NCBI GenBank assembly: GCA_947498505.1
Contig: CANMKG010000010.1
Coordinates: 1 to 64,000 of the forward strand
Length of the DNA: 64,000 nt
From: an uncultured Maribacter sp.
GTDB taxonomy: Bacteria > Bacteroidota > Bacteroidia > Flavobacteriales > Flavobacteriaceae
Reading direction: 5' to 3'
Part shown: piece by piece, positions 43,068 through 49,859 of the stretch
Layout of the letters: each line of letters begins with the position of its first letter
How positions within the stretch are numbered: position 1 is the first letter of the stretch
Made by a program: the position numbers and the translations under genes
Notes under the pieces: model-generated
The model's database searches: none
What the model was told of the DNA's origin: nothing
What the model saw: the letters and a program-made list of their open reading frames with translations, nothing else

Positions 43068-43087
43068 ACTAAACTATTGCATAGTTT

Positions 43088-43128
43088 AAAACCTCATTAC
43101 TTATAACAAAGTAATGAGGTTTTATTAT
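43088..43128 (+). terminator. Terminator after yceI
   Basis: The 13-bp stem AAAACCTCATTAC / GTAATGAGGTTTT (43088-43100 with 43111-43123) with a ten-base loop is followed by an AT-rich tail. Confidence 0.88.
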
Positions 43129-43143
43129 TTTTAGCACTGGCTA

Positions 43144-43174
43144 TTGGCTATTTTAAAAATCATTTCTATATTTG
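43144..43174 (+). promoter_or_regulatory. trp operon promoter
   Basis: TTG (43144-43146), 20 bp spacer, then TATATTTG (43167-43174), a full match to the Bacteroidota -7 consensus TAnnTTTG. The start of transcription is expected at about 43180, so the leader peptide ATG (43182) is almost at the 5' end of the RNA. Confidence 0.75.
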
Positions 43175-43181
43175 AACCTTA

Positions 43182-43238
43182 ATGAGAAACAAAGGGATAA
43201 ATACTTGGTGGTGGAGCAACTTACGAAAAACATCGTGA
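43182..43238 (+). CDS. trpL: trp operon leader peptide with three consecutive Trp codons
   Basis: The frame reads MRNKGINTWWWSNLRKTS and stops with TGA at 43236. Three TGG codons stand in a row at 43206-43214, an extreme enrichment for an 18-residue peptide. It lies between the trp promoter and a terminator hairpin ahead of trpE. It would act as the sensor of charged tRNA-Trp: a ribosome short of Trp-tRNA stalls on the TGG codons. The stop codon lies within segment 2 of the downstream fold, as needed for the classical scheme. No Shine-Dalgarno sequence precedes it, and the RNA leader is only a few bases long, which suggests leaderless initiation. Confidence 0.88.
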   Translation: MRNKGINTWWWSNLRKTS

Positions 43239-43301
43239 GCATAGCATCATTGTAGTAAAACTATATAAAGGCTTGTCATCACGACAAGCCTTTACTTTTT
43301 T
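43220..43301 (+). promoter_or_regulatory. trp attenuator: competing 1:2, 2:3 and 3:4 hairpins
   Basis: Segment 1 CTTACGA (43220-43226) pairs with segment 2 TCGTGAG (43233-43239). Segment 2 TCGTGA (43233-43238) can instead pair with TCACGA (43279-43284), extended by ATAGC (43241-43245) with GCTTGT (43271-43276), allowing one bulged base. That antiterminator occupies the left arm of the terminator. The terminator is an 11-bp stem AAAGGCTTGTC / GACAAGCCTTT (43267-43277 with 43283-43293), followed by ACTTTTTT. Stalling at the Trp codons covers segment 1, frees segment 2 and favours read-through. A ribosome reaching the stop at 43236 covers segment 2 and lets the terminator form. Confidence 0.82.
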
Positions 43302-43323: not shown

Positions 43324-44721
43324 ATGACGTACCAATTAGAGACACATTTTAAAAAAATACTTGCAGACACTATTACTCCTGTTAGTGTATATTTAAAAAT
43401 TAGAGACCGTTTTCCAAATAGCATCTTATTGGAAAGTAGCGATTATCATGCTAATGATAACAGCTTTTCTTATATCTGTTGCAACCCTATTGCCTCAATA
43501 AAAGTTGAAAACGAAATAGTAACGCAACAATTCCCCGATGGAACTTTAGAAGAAACTGTTATTACTGATACTACTGACGTAGTAGGTATTTTAAATGATT
43601 TTAGTCAAAAGTTTAAAGGAAGTAAAAACGATTTTAAATTTATTAATAACGGCTTGTTTGGATACATGGCTTATGATGCGGTACGGTATTATGAGGACAT
43701 TAGTATTTCTAAAAAAGAAAATAGCGTTACTATTCCAGACATTTATTATGCGGTATATCAAAACATAATAGCTATAGACCATTTTAAAAATCAGGCGTAC
43801 ATTTTTGCGCATTGTTACGATACCCAAAGTAACATTGCCGAAATAGAACAAATACTTAATATTAGAAGTTTTGCTTCATATAATTTTTCAACGCAAGGCG
43901 AGCCAACTTCCAATCTCAAAGATGAAGAGTACAAAGCACATGTAGAACTGGCCAAAAAACACTGCCAACGTGGTGATGTTTTTCAGTTGGTACTTTCAAG
44001 ACGTTTTTCTCAAGAGTTTAAAGGAGATGAATTTAATGTTTACCGCGCCTTACGTTCAGTAAACCCCTCGCCATATTTGTTTTATTTTGATTATGGTGAT
44101 TTTAAAATATTCGGAAGCTCTCCTGAAGCACAACTTATTGTAAAGGATGGAAAAGCTGAAATTCATCCAATAGCAGGAACCTTTAAGAGAACTGGTAATG
44201 ATGAACAAGATGCCATACTTGCTAAAAAACTCACCAAAGACGATAAAGAAAATAGTGAACATGTAATGCTTGTAGACCTAGCCAGAAATGACCTAAGTAG
44301 AAATGGCAACATGGTTACTGTTGAAAACTATAGAGAAGTTCAATATTTCTCTCACGTAATTCACTTAGTATCAAAAGTTACTGGACAAAAAAAGAACGAT
44401 ATCCCAACAATGAAAGTAGTTGCAGATACTTTCCCTGCTGGAACATTAAGTGGAGCACCTAAACATATGGCAATGCAGCTTATTGAAAAATACGAGAAAA
44501 CAAGTCGAGGATATTATGGCGGAGCTATAGGTTTTATGGATTTTGAAGGTAATTTTAATCATGCCATTATGATTAGAACATTTTTAAGCAAAAACCATCA
44601 ACTACATTACCAAGCAGGTGCTGGTTTAGTAGCCGCTTCTAAACCCGAAGACGAATTGCAAGAAACGTATAACAAATTAGGCGCCTTAACTAAGGCTCTG
44701 GAAATAGCAAAATCCATCTAA
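43324..44721 (+). CDS. trpE: Anthranilate synthase component I
   Basis: 465 residues from ATG 43324 (MTYQLETHF). An earlier in-frame start at 43273 lies inside the terminator hairpin and is rejected. It converts chorismate to anthranilate with glutamine-derived ammonia from TrpG. Family motifs are LLESSD near residue 31 (the LLES segment of the tryptophan feedback site), FQLVLSRRFS, GSSPEAQL, HPIAGTFKRTG, EHVMLVDLARNDL, FPAGTLSGAPK and GYYGGAIGF. Both product inhibition and attenuation are therefore expected. First structural gene of trpEGDCFBA. Confidence 0.96.
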   Translation: MTYQLETHFKKILADTITPVSVYLKIRDRFPNSILLESSDYHANDNSFSYICCNPIASIKVENEIVTQQFPDGTLEETVITDTTDVVGILNDFSQKFKGSKNDFKFINNGLFGYMAYDAVRYYEDISISKKENSVTIPDIYYAVYQNIIAIDHFKNQAYIFAHCYDTQSNIAEIEQILNIRSFASYNFSTQGEPTSNLKDEEYKAHVELAKKHCQRGDVFQLVLSRRFSQEFKGDEFNVYRALRSVNPSPYLFYFDYGDFKIFGSSPEAQLIVKDGKAEIHPIAGTFKRTGNDEQDAILAKKLTKDDKENSEHVMLVDLARNDLSRNGNMVTVENYREVQYFSHVIHLVSKVTGQKKNDIPTMKVVADTFPAGTLSGAPKHMAMQLIEKYEKTSRGYYGGAIGFMDFEGNFNHAIMIRTFLSKNHQLHYQAGAGLVAASKPEDELQETYNKLGALTKALEIAKSI

Positions 44722-44765: not shown

Positions 44766-45392
44766 ATGAGTCAAAATAAAACAAACAACGAACAGCAAAA
44801 TTCCTCCCCTTTGGGGAGGCCGGGTGGGGCAACCGTATTAGTCATAGATAATTACGATAGTTTTACCTATAATTTGGTTCACTATTTAGAAGATTTAGAT
44901 TGTGAGGTTGTTGTTAAAAGAAACGACCAACTTACTTTGGATGAAGTGGATGCTTTTGAGAAAATTGTTCTTTCCCCTGGCCCCGGTATACCAGACGAAG
45001 CTGGTCTTTTAAAAGAAATCATTACTAAATATGCTCCAACAAAAAGCATATTTGGAGTATGCTTGGGTCAACAAGCCATTGCAGAAGTTTTTGGAGGATC
45101 ATTAATTAATTTAGACGATGTTTATCATGGTATTGCCACCAAAATAGAAATCGCAAAACCAAATGACATTTTGTTTAAGGGGCTACCTAAAGAAATAGAA
45201 GTAGGTCGTTATCACTCATGGGTTGTAAATCCAGATATGCCAGACGTATTAGAAGCCACTTCTTTTGACGAAAATGGACAAGTAATGTCGCTACGTCATA
45301 AAACCTACGATGTTTCTGCTGTACAATATCATCCAGAATCGGTATTAACGCCTCAAGGAAAAGAAATATTGAAAAACTGGTTAAACAATTAA
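44766..45392 (+). CDS. trpG: Anthranilate synthase component II (glutamine amidotransferase) with an inserted palindromic element in its N-terminus
   Basis: 208 residues of class I glutamine amidotransferase: VLVIDNYDSFTYNLVHYL, catalytic Cys99 in GVCLGQQ, and YHPESVLTP with the catalytic His and Glu. It supplies ammonia to TrpE. The normal start of the fold is VLVIDNYDSF. Here 22 extra residues precede it, and residues 12-22 (NSSPLGRPGGA) are encoded by a palindromic repeat (44802-44830). No ATG, GTG or TTG lies between the repeat and the fold, so translation probably starts at ATG 44766 and reads through the element. Confidence 0.93.
   Translation: MSQNKTNNEQQNSSPLGRPGGATVLVIDNYDSFTYNLVHYLEDLDCEVVVKRNDQLTLDEVDAFEKIVLSPGPGIPDEAGLLKEIITKYAPTKSIFGVCLGQQAIAEVFGGSLINLDDVYHGIATKIEIAKPNDILFKGLPKEIEVGRYHSWVVNPDMPDVLEATSFDENGQVMSLRHKTYDVSAVQYHPESVLTPQGKEILKNWLNN
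44802..44830. repeat. Palindromic repeat element, copy 2, inside the trpG coding frame
   Basis: CCTCCCCTTTGGGGAGG followed by CCGGGTGGGG. Inverted relative to copy 1 at 44724-44751. It encodes residues 13-22 of TrpG without breaking the frame. Confidence 0.75.
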
Positions 45393-45395
45393 AAA

Positions 45396-46388
45396 ATGAA
45401 AAAAATATTAAATCGACTTATTAATCATGATATTCTTGCCAAAGAAGATGCAAAGCAAGTTCTGGTTAATATTGCTAAAGGAGATTACAACACTAGTCAG
45501 ATAGCGGCATTTTTAACCGTATACATGATGCGTAGTGTTACTATTGAAGAACTAGAGGGTTTTCGTGATGCTCTTTTAGAACTTTGTTTAGCTGTTGATT
45601 TATCAGCATATAATCCTATAGATTTATGTGGTACAGGTGGTGATGGCAAAGACACCTTTAATATATCTACATTGGCTTCATTTGTAACTGCTGGTGCAGG
45701 AGTTAAAGTAACCAAACATGGCAATTATGGTGTTTCTTCCGCTTGTGGTAGTAGCAATGTAATGGAGTTTCTTGGTATTAAATTTAGTAATGATGCTGGT
45801 TTTCTTGAAAAATCTTTAAATGAGACAGGTATTTGCGTTTTGCATGCACCATTATTTCACCCAGCAATGAAAAATGTGGCACCAATTAGAAGAGAACTGG
45901 GTGTAAAAACATTTTTTAATATGTTAGGCCCAATGGTAAATCCCGCTTTTCCAAAAAATCAGATGGTAGGTGTTTTTAATTTAGAACTTGCCAGAATGTA
46001 TGGTTACCTATACCAAAATACGGATAAAAATTTCACTGTATTACATGCTCTTGATGGTTATGATGAAATTTCGCTAACAGGAAACACAAAAACCATTTCC
46101 AATAATTCTGAGGGAATGATAAAACCTTCAGACTTTGGATTAGAACCTATACAACAATCTCAAATTTATGGCGGAGATACTGTGGAATCTTCTGCACAAA
46201 TATTCATGAATGTATTACAAGGCAAAGGTACAGCACCACAAAACAACGTAGTTTGTGCAAATGCTGGAGTTGCCATTGCAACCGTTAAAAACATTTCTCC
46301 TAAAGAAGGTTTTGAACTTGCCAAAGAATCTCTGTTAAGCGGTAAAGGATTAGAAACTCTTAAAAAATTACAAAACTTAAGTGCTTAA
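45396..46388 (+). CDS. trpD: Anthranilate phosphoribosyltransferase
   Basis: 330 residues. The PRPP-binding loop GTGGDGKDTFNISTLASF and the KHGNYGVSSACGSSNVMEFLG segment are diagnostic; TFFNMLGPMVNPA is the anthranilate-site motif. It joins anthranilate to PRPP. It is a separate protein from TrpG, unlike the enteric fusion. It starts 3 bp after trpG, and its stop overlaps the trpC start by one base (TAATG). Confidence 0.96.
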   Translation: MKKILNRLINHDILAKEDAKQVLVNIAKGDYNTSQIAAFLTVYMMRSVTIEELEGFRDALLELCLAVDLSAYNPIDLCGTGGDGKDTFNISTLASFVTAGAGVKVTKHGNYGVSSACGSSNVMEFLGIKFSNDAGFLEKSLNETGICVLHAPLFHPAMKNVAPIRRELGVKTFFNMLGPMVNPAFPKNQMVGVFNLELARMYGYLYQNTDKNFTVLHALDGYDEISLTGNTKTISNNSEGMIKPSDFGLEPIQQSQIYGGDTVESSAQIFMNVLQGKGTAPQNNVVCANAGVAIATVKNISPKEGFELAKESLLSGKGLETLKKLQNLSA

Positions 46389-47170
46389 TGGATATTTTAG
46401 AAAAAATAGTAATTGATAAACGAAAAGAAGTAGATTCCGTAAAATCTATTATTCCGGTTTCGCAATTAGAAAATTCTGTGCTTTTTAGCAGAGAAACCAT
46501 TTCATTAGCTAACGCTTTAAAAAACAGTAATTCCGGTATTATTGCAGAACATAAAAGACGCTCACCCTCAAAATCTATTATCAACAATAGCTTAAATGTT
46601 CAAGATGTAGCAACAGGTTACGAAAAAGCAGGTGTTTGCGGCATGTCCGTTTTAACTGATGGCAAATATTTTGGTGGCGCTTTAAATGATTTATTGCTTG
46701 CCAGAGCCTCAGCGAAGATTCCGTTACTGCGTAAAGAGTTTATTATTGATGAATACCAAATACTAGAAGCAAAAGCCCATGGTGCAGATGTAATTCTTTT
46801 AATTGCTGCAATTCTTACGAAACAAGAAATTAAACAATTTTCGGAGTTCGCTAAAAGCTTACAACTAGATGTACTTTTAGAAGTTCATAATGAGGAAGAA
46901 TTACACAAATCCATTATGCCCAGTTTAGATATGTTAGGAGTTAATAACCGAAACTTAAAAACTTTTGAAGTTAGCTTAGAAACTAGTAAAACACTTTCAG
47001 CATTAATCCCTAACGATTTTGTAAAAGTATCAGAAAGCGGTATTAGTTCTGTGGACGCTATTAAAACATTACAACCTTACGGATACAAAGGTTTTTTAAT
47101 AGGAGAAAACTTTATGAAAACCAACAATCCTGGTGAGAGTGCAACCCACTTTATTAATAACCTTGTTTAA
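46388..47170 (+). CDS. trpC: Indole-3-glycerol phosphate synthase
   Basis: 260 residues, (beta/alpha)8 barrel. Motifs: IIAEHKRRSPSKSII (catalytic Glu/Lys), VLTDGKYFGGALNDL, PLLRKEFIIDEYQI, LGVNNRNLKTFEV, VSESGIS, and GFLIGENFMK. It closes the indole ring. It is a free-standing enzyme, not fused to TrpF, and overlaps trpD by one base. Confidence 0.96.
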   Translation: MDILEKIVIDKRKEVDSVKSIIPVSQLENSVLFSRETISLANALKNSNSGIIAEHKRRSPSKSIINNSLNVQDVATGYEKAGVCGMSVLTDGKYFGGALNDLLLARASAKIPLLRKEFIIDEYQILEAKAHGADVILLIAAILTKQEIKQFSEFAKSLQLDVLLEVHNEEELHKSIMPSLDMLGVNNRNLKTFEVSLETSKTLSALIPNDFVKVSESGISSVDAIKTLQPYGYKGFLIGENFMKTNNPGESATHFINNLV

Positions 47171-47182
47171 TTCATTAAAGAG

Positions 47183-47851
47183 ATGAGTGATTATTATTAC
47201 ACAAAAAAAGAGCAGCCTCAGCGTATAGGTTTTCCTAAACTCAAAATTTGTGGTATGAATCATAATATCTCAGAAGTAGCCAGTTTAAAACCAGACTACC
47301 TTGGGTTTATATTTTGGAAACCTTCAAAAAGGTGTTTTAATACGCAAATGCCACAACTACCCCACAGCATTAAAAAAGTAGGCGTCTTTGTAAACGAAAC
47401 CATTGATGAGATTATAAACAAGGTAAAAAAGTACAGCTTACTTGGAATACAATTACACGGTAGCGAAAGCCCTGAGTTTTGTAAAGAACTCAAAGAAAAA
47501 GCTAAAGGTGTTAAAATCATAAAAGTATTTTCCATTAAAAATCAATTCAATTTTGATGTTTTAAAGGAATTTGAAAATGTTTGCGATTTCTATTTGTTTG
47601 ACACCAAAGGAGAATTACCCGGAGGAAATGGTTACACCTTCGACTGGAGTGTTTTAGAAAATTATCCTTTTACCAAACCCTTTTTTTTAAGTGGAGGAAT
47701 TGGATTAGAAGAAGCGGATAAAATAATAGCTTTTTTACAAACCGAAGCTTCTAAATATTGCTATGCGTTAGATGTGAATAGTAAGTTTGAAATAGAACCT
47801 GGATTAAAAAGTATAGAAAAATTAAAGCAATTTATTGCAAAAGTAAAGTAG
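47183..47851 (+). CDS. trpF: Phosphoribosylanthranilate isomerase
   Basis: 222 residues with LKICGMN (catalytic Cys) at about 24, DYLGFIFWKPSKR, GIQLHGSES, and the phosphate-binding LSGGIGLEEAD, plus the catalytic Asp in ALDVNSKFEIEPG. The N-terminus has about 20 residues more than most homologues (MSDYYYTKKEQPQRIGFP) before the first strand. It isomerises PRA to CdRP between TrpD and TrpC. It starts 12 bp after trpC. Confidence 0.95.
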   Translation: MSDYYYTKKEQPQRIGFPKLKICGMNHNISEVASLKPDYLGFIFWKPSKRCFNTQMPQLPHSIKKVGVFVNETIDEIINKVKKYSLLGIQLHGSESPEFCKELKEKAKGVKIIKVFSIKNQFNFDVLKEFENVCDFYLFDTKGELPGGNGYTFDWSVLENYPFTKPFFLSGGIGLEEADKIIAFLQTEASKYCYALDVNSKFEIEPGLKSIEKLKQFIAKVK

Positions 47852-47909
47852 CAAAAAATAAGCGTCGAAAACATTAGGCTTTTAACATTCGATATAAAGA
47901 ATTAAGAAT

Positions 47910-49091
47910 ATGAATTATAACGTTGACGAAAAAGGGTATTATGGCGATTTTGGAGGAGCTTTTATCCCTGAAATGCTTTATCCCAACGTAGAAAATCTCA
48001 GACAACAATACCTTAAAATAATGGCTGAACCTTCTTTTAAAGAAGAGTTTGACCAATTATTAAAAGATTACGTTGGCAGACCCTCCCCATTGTATTTCGC
48101 AAAGCGATTATCAAAAAAGTACAACACTAAAGTCTATTTAAAAAGAGAAGATTTAAACCATACTGGAGCGCATAAAGTAAATAACACCATTGGGCAAATA
48201 TTAATGGCAAAGCGTCTTGGCAAAAAGCGTATTATTGCCGAAACAGGAGCAGGTCAACACGGAGTTGCAACAGCAACGGTTTGCGCTTTAATGGGGATTG
48301 AATGTATTGTATATATGGGTGAGATAGATATTGCTCGTCAAGCACCAAACGTTGCCCGAATGAAAATGTTAGGCGCAGAGGTAAAACCTGCAATGTCCGG
48401 GAGTAGAACCCTAAAAGATGCTACTAACGAAGCTATTCGCGATTGGATTAATAACCCAGTAGATACCCATTACATTATTGGTTCGGCTATTGGTCCTCAC
48501 CCCTATCCAGATATGGTGACTCGTTTTCAGTCAGTTATTTCTGAAGAAATTAAATGGCAACTAAAAGAAAAAGAAGGTCGTGAAAATCCTGATTATGTAA
48601 TTGCTTGTATTGGTGGTGGCAGTAATGCCGCAGGTACTTATTACCATTATTTACATGAAGAAGATGTTAACATTATTGCGGTCGAAGCTGCTGGATTAGG
48701 AATTGATTCTGGTGAAAGTGCTGCAACCTCTGCCTTAGGCAAAGAAGGTGTTATACACGGATGCAAAACCTTATTAATGCAAACCAAAGATGGTCAAATT
48801 ACAGAGCCATATTCAATCTCTGCTGGTTTAGATTATCCTGGTGTTGGTCCAATGCATGCGCATTTACATAAAACAGGAAGGGCAGAATTTGTTTCCGCAA
48901 CTGATGATGAAGCCATGCAAGCTGGATTAGAACTTACCAAATTAGAAGGTATTATTCCTGCTATTGAAAGTAGTCATGCACTTGCCGTTTTTAAACACAA
49001 ATCCTTTAAACCAGATGATGTGGTTGTAATTAGCCTATCAGGTCGTGGTGATAAAGATTTAGATAATTATATAAAATATTTTAAGCTTTAA
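47910..49091 (+). CDS. trpB: Tryptophan synthase beta chain
   Basis: 393 residues, TrpB1 type. The PLP-binding Lys sits in LNHTGAHKVNNTIGQ, and GGGSNAAGTYYHYL binds the phosphate of PLP. GAGQHGVATATVCALMGI is the activating loop. It condenses indole with serine. It starts 58 bp after trpF, the largest gap within the operon, and is followed by trpA after 6 bp. Confidence 0.97.
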   Translation: MNYNVDEKGYYGDFGGAFIPEMLYPNVENLRQQYLKIMAEPSFKEEFDQLLKDYVGRPSPLYFAKRLSKKYNTKVYLKREDLNHTGAHKVNNTIGQILMAKRLGKKRIIAETGAGQHGVATATVCALMGIECIVYMGEIDIARQAPNVARMKMLGAEVKPAMSGSRTLKDATNEAIRDWINNPVDTHYIIGSAIGPHPYPDMVTRFQSVISEEIKWQLKEKEGRENPDYVIACIGGGSNAAGTYYHYLHEEDVNIIAVEAAGLGIDSGESAATSALGKEGVIHGCKTLLMQTKDGQITEPYSISAGLDYPGVGPMHAHLHKTGRAEFVSATDDEAMQAGLELTKLEGIIPAIESSHALAVFKHKSFKPDDVVVISLSGRGDKDLDNYIKYFKL

Positions 49092-49097
49092 AATATT

Positions 49098-49859
49098 ATG
49101 AACAGAATTCAACAAAAGCTACAAGAGGACAAAAAATTACTCTCTATATATTTTAGTGCGGGCTTTCCTTCACTTAATGATACCGTATCAATTATTCAAG
49201 ATTTAGAAAAAAATGGCGTTGATTTTATTGAGATTGGACTCCCCTTTTCTGATCCTTTAGCTGACGGTCCTACAATTCAGGAAAGCTCTACAATTGCATT
49301 AAAAAATGGTATGACTACTGAAATTCTTTTTAATCAATTAAAAGATATCAGAAAATCAGTAAACATTCCACTTATAATCATGGGATATTTTAATCCCATG
49401 CTACAATATGGTGTTGAAGCTTTTTGCACTAAATGCAAAGAGATTGGTATTGACGGGTTAATCATTCCGGACCTTCCTTTAGATGTTTATGAAAGAGAAT
49501 ACAAAGCAATTTTTGAAAAGCATGGTTTACTTAATATCTTTTTAATTACCCCACAGACGGGTGATGAACGTATACAACAAATTGATGCTGCCTCAAACGG
49601 ATTTATCTATATGGTAAGTTCTGCAGGTGTAACTGGATCACAATCTGGTTTTGGTAACACTCAGGAAGACTATTTTAATAGAATTGCCAAAATGAATTTG
49701 AACAACCCTCAAATTGTTGGTTTTGGAATTAAGGATAAAGAAACATTTAATCAGGCTACAAAAACAGCAAAAGGTGCTATTATTGGATCTGCATTTATCA
49801 AACATTTAAATACTAATGGTGTAAATGAGATTGCGAGTTTTGTAAAAGCTATCAAGTAA
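49098..49859 (+). CDS. trpA: Tryptophan synthase alpha chain
   Basis: 253 residues. The catalytic Glu in FIEIGLPFSDPLADGPTIQ, PDLPLDVYEREY, and GFIYMVSSAGVTGSQ (loop) are conserved. It cleaves indole-3-glycerol phosphate and channels indole to TrpB, encoded 6 bp upstream. Last biosynthetic gene of the operon; a short membrane gene starts 5 bp after its stop. Confidence 0.97.
   Translation: MNRIQQKLQEDKKLLSIYFSAGFPSLNDTVSIIQDLEKNGVDFIEIGLPFSDPLADGPTIQESSTIALKNGMTTEILFNQLKDIRKSVNIPLIIMGYFNPMLQYGVEAFCTKCKEIGIDGLIIPDLPLDVYEREYKAIFEKHGLLNIFLITPQTGDERIQQIDAASNGFIYMVSSAGVTGSQSGFGNTQEDYFNRIAKMNLNNPQIVGFGIKDKETFNQATKTAKGAIIGSAFIKHLNTNGVNEIASFVKAIK

Follow-up and report, generated by a model that had tools for sequence, protein, structure and literature searches.

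How might a ribosome control an attenuator when the leader RNA appears to begin almost at the start codon of its own leader peptide? Attenuation requires a ribosome close behind RNA polymerase and, since Bacteroidota are described as having no Shine-Dalgarno sequences (PMC6847099), the loading of a ribosome on a leader of ~120 bases is a testable question. It is raised here by a locus in the window (the whole stretch of 64,000 nucleotides that was analysed, from an uncultured Maribacter sp., contig CANMKG010000010.1), for which the original prediction had proposed ribosome-mediated attenuation of trpE by a leader peptide with three consecutive tryptophan codons.

The leader ahead of trpE and its known relatives

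The element precedes a complete trpEGDCFBA operon encoded on one strand (Table 1), and the YceI-domain gene upstream of it closes with a terminator-like hairpin of its own (43087-43124, 16 pairs). The nearest named TrpE relatives come from uncultured Maribacter sp. (92% identity), followed by Arenibacter, Pareuzebyella, Cellulophaga, Flagellimonas and others, all of them Flavobacteriaceae. The parts that had been predicted lie on the sequence at the positions given for them: the -7 box, whose end is separated from the leader ATG by seven bases, the frame with three consecutive TGG codons, the stop codon within segment 2 and, ahead of trpE, an intrinsic terminator with an 11-pair stem, a 5-base loop and a T tract.

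Table 1 Features of the trp leader and the operon downstream, in window coordinates
Feature	Position	Strand	Basis
-7 promoter box of Bacteroidota (TAnnTTTG), TATATTTG	43167..43174	+	sequence; consensus from PMC9723704
Putative transcription start, 4-6 nt past the box	43179..43181	+	4 or 5 nt spacing reported for F. johnsoniae, PMC6847099
Leader peptide ORF MRNKGINTWWWSNLRKTS with TGA stop	43182..43238	+	sequence; WW/WWW frame in 131/133 trpE-upstream regions including the window
Start codon ATG of the leader ORF	43182-43184	+	sequence
Three Trp codons TGG TGG TGG, proposed stall site	43206..43214	+	sequence
Leader stop codon TGA, inside segment 2	43236-43238	+	sequence
Segment 1, CUUACGA, pairing with 43233-43239	43220..43226	+	fold of the no-ribosome state; register not conserved in the family
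Segment 2, UCGUGA (43233-43238) with extension 43239-43245	43233..43245	+	94.0% of cells paired with terminator loop and 3' arm; extension from forced fold
Segment 3, part of terminator 5' arm (43271-43276), then UCACGA (43279-43284, loop and start of 3' arm)	43271..43284	+	alignment, forced fold
Intrinsic terminator: stem 43267-43277/43283-43293, loop 43278-43282, T tract 43296-43301	43266..43301	+	terminator scan; 99.6% of stem cells paired, 129 genera
trpE, first gene of the controlled operon	43324..44721	+	PF00425, PF04715
trpG, trpD, trpC, trpF, trpB, trpA, in this order	44766..49859	+	ORFs; Pfam GATase, Glycos_transf_3, IGPS, PRAI, PALP, Trp_syntA

The run of tryptophan codons is not special by itself, because TGGTGGTGG occurs five times in the window (shuffle mean 0.22). 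The complete pattern TTTG-N2-20-ATG-N3-33-TGGTGGTGG is found there once and was held by two of 100 dinucleotide shuffles, and the leader RNA folds with a z score of -4.46 relative to its shuffles, none of which (0/200) folds as well. Read on the minus strand, the attenuator hairpin (43265-43295) is terminator-like too, with 14 pairs and a T-rich tail. The terminator word AGGCTTGTC was considered as a general terminator word of the 4.08-Mb genome and rejected: it occurs eight times on the forward and five times on the reverse strand, two of these occurrences being the attenuator's own arms, against two and five for a reversed-pattern control.

The leader matches Rfam family RF01692, 'Bacteroidete tryptophan peptide leader RNA', over model positions 1-131 with 48.6 bits (E 4.8e-5), 0.4 bits below the gathering cut-off of 49 bits; at the cut-off, Rfam returns five tRNAs only from the window, and the leader match surfaces when the cut-off is lifted. 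As RF01692 is described, its members lie upstream of trp biosynthesis genes in Bacteroidota, which is also the position of the window leader (trpE at 43324, complete operon). Five of seven same-genus genomes reach the cut-off (G001, 51.6 bits; G002, 51.3; G003, 58.9; G004, 57.7; G005, 51.8) and two score below it (G006, 44.2; G007, 45.9); alignable WWW leaders are present at loci L022, L024, L012, L014, L020 and L029. With the genome of the window counted, matches were obtained in 31 of 60 genomes near the window (E <= 0.001; 24 over the cut-off) and in 47 of 395 genomes of the phylum (E <= 0.01; 37 over the cut-off).

The RF01692 match, together with earlier reports, indicates that the window attenuator is of an already described kind. 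Weinberg et al. 2010 (PMC2864571) list the Bacteroid-trp motif in their Table 1, a Bacteroid-trp RNA has been noted ahead of the trp operon of Flavobacterium psychrophilum, as in the window (PMC6414381), and RNA-seq of that species is reported to give clues for leader-peptide attenuation before amino-acid operons (PMC9723704). The Rfam family shares with the window element the position ahead of trpE, the WWW frame, a hairpin and the first terminator arm. However, its model stops within the terminator 5' arm and is thus without the helix that, in the window, joins segment 2 to the terminator loop and 3' arm.

To avoid circularity, conservation was assessed in a set anchored on TrpE and independent of the RNA model. 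TrpE was searched for in 149 genomes, each representing one genus of the family; 136 have it, and 133 of these have usable upstream sequence (G485, G562 and G498 were left out). In 131 of the 133 regions, the 600 nt upstream of trpE contain a short WW or WWW frame (WWW in 116). The reverse strand has four such regions, and 20 dinucleotide shuffles gave a mean of 2.15 and a maximum of 5 of 133. Of the two regions without such a frame, that of G501 is cut by a contig end and still contains TGGTGGTGG; in the other, from G455 (L185, a genome of ~1.6 Mb), no WW leader was seen by eye upstream of trpE, where coding sequence appears to reach close to the gene. Because WW/WWW frames are this frequent in the TrpE-anchored regions, the RF01692 search in the 60 genomes near the window under-counts the element. 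By eye, two attenuators stand in series at L031 (G037; 101-360) and L186 (G540): a tandem pair of WW/WWW leader peptides precedes the trp genes, and a separate terminator-like hairpin follows each peptide.

Competing helices and modelled ribosome positions

The helices were aligned across 129 genera, G008 being left out for want of a terminator call and G023 because the script picked the wrong terminator. In the terminator stem (3:4), 1370 of 1376 cells are paired (99.6%) and nine of the 11 pairs have changes on both sides. The core of the alternative 2:3 helix, UCGUGA/UCACGA, is paired in 725 of 771 cells (94.0%), falling to 4.1-51.9% when slid by one to three columns, and three of its six pairs have changes on both sides; since the sequence pair is identical in 100 of 129 genera, most of this support is plain conservation. 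Two outlier helices, GGATTCA/TGAATCC in G423 and ACCGGAT/ATCCGGT in G544, find non-cognate matches in 0/129 genera each way, and these cognate-only pairs are stronger evidence for 2:3 than the conserved core. Covariation thus bears out both the terminator and the predicted antiterminator.

The third helix fared differently. In the register of the original prediction, 1:2 is paired in 488 of 894 cells (54.6%), which is not above the slid control (up to 56.8%). What stood is the pairing of segment 2 with upstream sequence: in leaders folded up to the terminator its mean probability is 0.80, compared to 0.40 in two-base-block shuffles, and it exceeds that of the leader's own shuffles in 114 of 115 genera. 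Given that the fixed register fails and upstream pairing persists, sequestration of segment 2 seems to be kept while its exact partner shifts among genera.

Segment 2 is marked by the motif T[CT]G[TC]GA, found in 115 of 130 genera. The motif is conserved as RNA, and not through coding constraint, because it is found in each of the three frames of the leader, whose stop codon falls inside it in 57 genera, downstream of it in 32 and before it in 26. The first base of the stop codon lies between 13 bases before and 8 after the first base of the motif in 114 of the 115, and a terminating ribosome would reach the motif in nearly all of them, perhaps excepting two cases at -11 and -13 if the front edge of the ribosome is taken to lie 12 bases past the A site. 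Of the 15 genera that lack the motif, two (G471 and G023) have no cognate helix, in G023 with the terminator wrongly chosen by the script; in G484 and G486 the cognate pair is not better than many non-cognate pairs, and 62-120 of 129 foreign leaders fit the terminator equally well in G009, G453, G087, G532, G010 and G466.

A short tryptophan-rich peptide ahead of a tryptophan gene could also suggest a device like TnaC, where free tryptophan is sensed by the nascent peptide, in place of a stall caused by scarce charged tRNA. The end of the peptide is not the conserved part here, because its last residues vary and the RNA motif can fall in any of the three frames or past the stop; such sensing, moreover, has the wrong sign for a biosynthetic operon, and we regard this explanation as extremely improbable.

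In the window, segments 2 and 3 pair continuously over 43279-43284 (UCACGA, 6 bp). When the 2:3 helix is forced, further pairs form between 43239-43241 and 43274-43276 and between 43243-43245 and 43271-43273, in agreement with the extent predicted for segment 3. In the 109 of 130 genera with both the motif and a full six-base match, 2:3 gains 6.31 extra pairs on average, compared to a shuffle mean of 5.54; the number exceeds that in shuffles in 70 of the 109, and the energy with the extension is -11.8 compared to -9.6 kcal/mol. Because of these extra pairs with the 5' arm, in the window and across genera, an antiterminator of unusual topology that touches just the loop and 3' arm of the terminator was dropped as a candidate.

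The use of the helices was modelled by masking the 5' side of the RNA to ~12 bases past the A site, an assumed distance, and exposing the remainder stepwise. In these folds the RNA without a ribosome adopts 1:2 (0.95-1.00) and then the terminator. With a ribosome stalled at the second or third tryptophan codon, the probability of 2:3 is predicted to be 0.99-1.00 from 43284 to 43288; with a stall at the first it would be 0.92 at 43284 and 0.27 by 43287, from which point 1:2 and 3:4 win again. A ribosome at the stop codon reduces 2:3 to 0 in the model, and the terminator would form from 43286. The predicted exclusion of one fold by the other, with a stall hiding segment 1, is thereby reproduced in the modelled states. 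Once 43290 is exposed the terminator wins in every state (for the stall at the third codon, -22.2 kcal/mol compared to -15.3 with 2:3 forced), and because of this, antitermination must, as modelled, be kinetic. Antitermination in the classical trp attenuator is likewise regarded as kinetic.

These states suggest the following mechanism, of which we infer the 5' end, the stalling and the regulation by tryptophan. A ribosome would start on an AUG a few bases from the 5' end of the RNA and translate MRNKGINTWWWSNLRKTS. When charged tRNA-Trp is scarce, it would stall on UGGUGGUGG and cover segment 1; segment 2 would then capture the emerging part of the terminator 5' arm, the loop and the first bases of the 3' arm, and RNA polymerase would continue into trpE. 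When tryptophan is ample, the ribosome would arrive at the UGA within segment 2 and hide that segment, letting the terminator form, as it would also do with no ribosome present, when segment 1 would sequester segment 2.

A run of tryptophan codons, a stop codon that falls in segment 2, helices that exclude one another, and an intrinsic terminator with the trp operon behind it make it very probable that the element, as had been proposed, attenuates transcription of that operon by way of a ribosome on the leader. What the analysis shows are the parts themselves, how they are conserved and covary, and, in the modelled folds, their dependence on ribosome state. With Escherichia coli trpL the element shares a leader peptide with tryptophan codons, three exclusive helices and a terminator ahead of trpE. 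The E. coli leader has a Shine-Dalgarno site and a longer 5' UTR, whereas that of the window would be almost absent.

Terminator stems and other amino-acid leaders

Two further amino-acid leaders were seen in the genome of the window. At L188 (848-795, minus strand), a histidine leader, MRNTNMHHHFHTGSQAR, lies ahead of hisG with a terminator formed by CCCGTTTGA/TCAAGCGGG. Histidine-rich leaders are present in 26 of the 30 hisG loci examined, this genome included; hisG itself was found in 49 of 60 genomes, and 25 of the leaders are comparable with their trp counterparts. Rfam gave no match to the histidine leader in the window's own genome, and among the five loci scanned L204 alone showed a weak His_leader match, below the cut-off. 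A structured element ahead of hisG has already been noted, and pheA is also mentioned, in the F. psychrophilum study (PMC9723704). At L189 (773-702, minus strand), a phenylalanine-rich leader, MTKQYFWNGFTFYFFFKRGTGLF, is placed upstream of a prephenate dehydratase domain match and is followed, by eye, by a terminator-like hairpin.

The histidine leaders bear on the near-invariance of the trp terminator stem, GGCTTGTC/GACAAGCC, which is identical in 91 of 129 genera. Such constancy might reflect a second function, with the terminated leader RNA also acting in trans as a small RNA; a trans role has been reported for the trp leader peptide in Sinorhizobium (PMC7298713), and in the 25 shared genera the inner 5' arm has a mean pairwise identity of 0.90 in trp compared to 0.79 in his. 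However, the stem of the hisG attenuator is nearly as conserved, with CCGTTTGA in 20 of the 25, and four of the other five his arms are the same arm read one base on, which lowers the 0.79 figure. Because the trp 5' arm pairs in the antiterminator as well, constraints in cis can suffice for the identity of the stem. We therefore keep the trans-acting RNA just as a weak rival, and an improbable one, to a stem maintained by attenuation.

Distance from the promoter box to the leader start codon

In F. psychrophilum the box is reported to span -12 to -5 (PMC9723704), and in F. johnsoniae many promoters, taken as bona fide, have 4 or 5 nt between the box and the transcription start (PMC6847099). 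In the window, box and AUG are 7 nt apart, compared to this expected 4 or 5 nt, and the leader would have a 5' UTR of about 1-3 nt. The almost leaderless RNA that the original prediction had remarked upon as odd in fact recurs, as judged from spacing, in many genera.

Spacing could be scored in 125 of 130 genera, five having no box or no in-frame ATG. All but three of the 125 (122) have a box that matches TAnnTTTG perfectly, compared to 5.5% of shuffled windows. The AUG follows the box by 4-5 nt in 31 genera (5 nt in 24), where distances evenly distributed from 0 to 22 nt would place 2/23 (p 4e-8, kinship ignored). There is also a broad second mode at 16-20 nt. By eye, G008 (AUG) and G550 (GUG) also start 5 nt past the box and stand outside the count of 31. 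For G468, scored at 0 nt, the ATG taken is probably one that is in frame but lies upstream, outside the transcript, and three of the 31 genera have a second in-frame ATG before the tryptophan codons.

A tree of TrpE was built from 46 of the 133 genera, those with a nearly full-length protein, so that it lacks 15 of the 31 genera with a spacing of 4-5 nt; two labels were set by hand (G008, 5; G021, 18, with a TTG at 17), and the group of neither changes. Of the 19 genera in the clade of the window (support 97/89), 16 have a spacing of 4-5 nt and three, including the window, one of 7 nt, none being longer. Across the tree, well supported branches force at least two changes of the spacing trait.

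Named relatives were taken from the 80 nearest records, which are close kin and not independent; 77 were scored, the others being L230 (where 500 nt contain no TGGTGG), L238 (which has no box) and L223 (where a TGGTGG of the upstream gene was taken). Three have a spacing of 4 nt, 51 of 5, three of 6, 13 of 7 and three of 8, and four are longer (17, 17, 28 and 30), which places 54 of 77 at 4-5 nt. The start codon is ATG in all 77, although GTG was allowed in the scoring. All records of Zobellia, Eudoraea, Flagellimonas, Allomuricauda, Muricauda and Muriicola among these relatives are at 5 nt, Arenibacter and some Maribacter are at 7-8 nt and Aquimarina is at 17 nt.

The same attenuator might instead be transcribed from a second promoter further upstream, giving a longer 5' UTR and leaving the box at 43167 minor or unused. 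Distances of 16-21 nt from box to AUG in many genera are in keeping with this, as is the report that leaderless transcripts make up only 5.5% of the mRNAs mapped in F. psychrophilum (PMC9723704). Yet the box is near-universal and far above its shuffled frequency, the distances spike at the start-site spacing both in the family (31 of 125 genera) and among the named relatives (54 of 77, 51 of them at 5 nt), the clade of the window holds none beyond 7 nt, and the upstream YceI gene has its own terminator. We consider the second promoter unlikely. Because the AUG sits exactly at start-site spacing, we lean towards a leaderless layout kept by selection: in the clade of Maribacter, Zobellia, Cellulophaga, Flagellimonas-Allomuricauda and Eudoraea, and in some others, the attenuator would run leaderless, with its AUG at the first base of the RNA or, in the window, 1-3 bases off, and with coupling to transcription retained.

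Leaderless trp leader peptides have been described in Streptomyces lividans, where trpL1, like the window leader, has a WWW run and lies ahead of trpE (PMC8079986); it belongs to another phylum and precedes a monocistronic trpE, and the likeness noted here is one of layout. A search of open-licence papers found no report of a leaderless trp leader peptide in Bacteroidota.

To the described RNA family, the present comparison adds an antiterminator with a frame-independent motif, near-universal presence in the Flavobacteriaceae set and clade-wide comparative evidence for a peptide start at the transcript end. The comparative set supplies the antiterminator missing from the Rfam model, and the distances from box to AUG point, in one clade, to a start at the very first base. 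If this is true, the ribosome would load the moment the 5' end emerges from RNA polymerase, which would provide coupling without Shine-Dalgarno sites.
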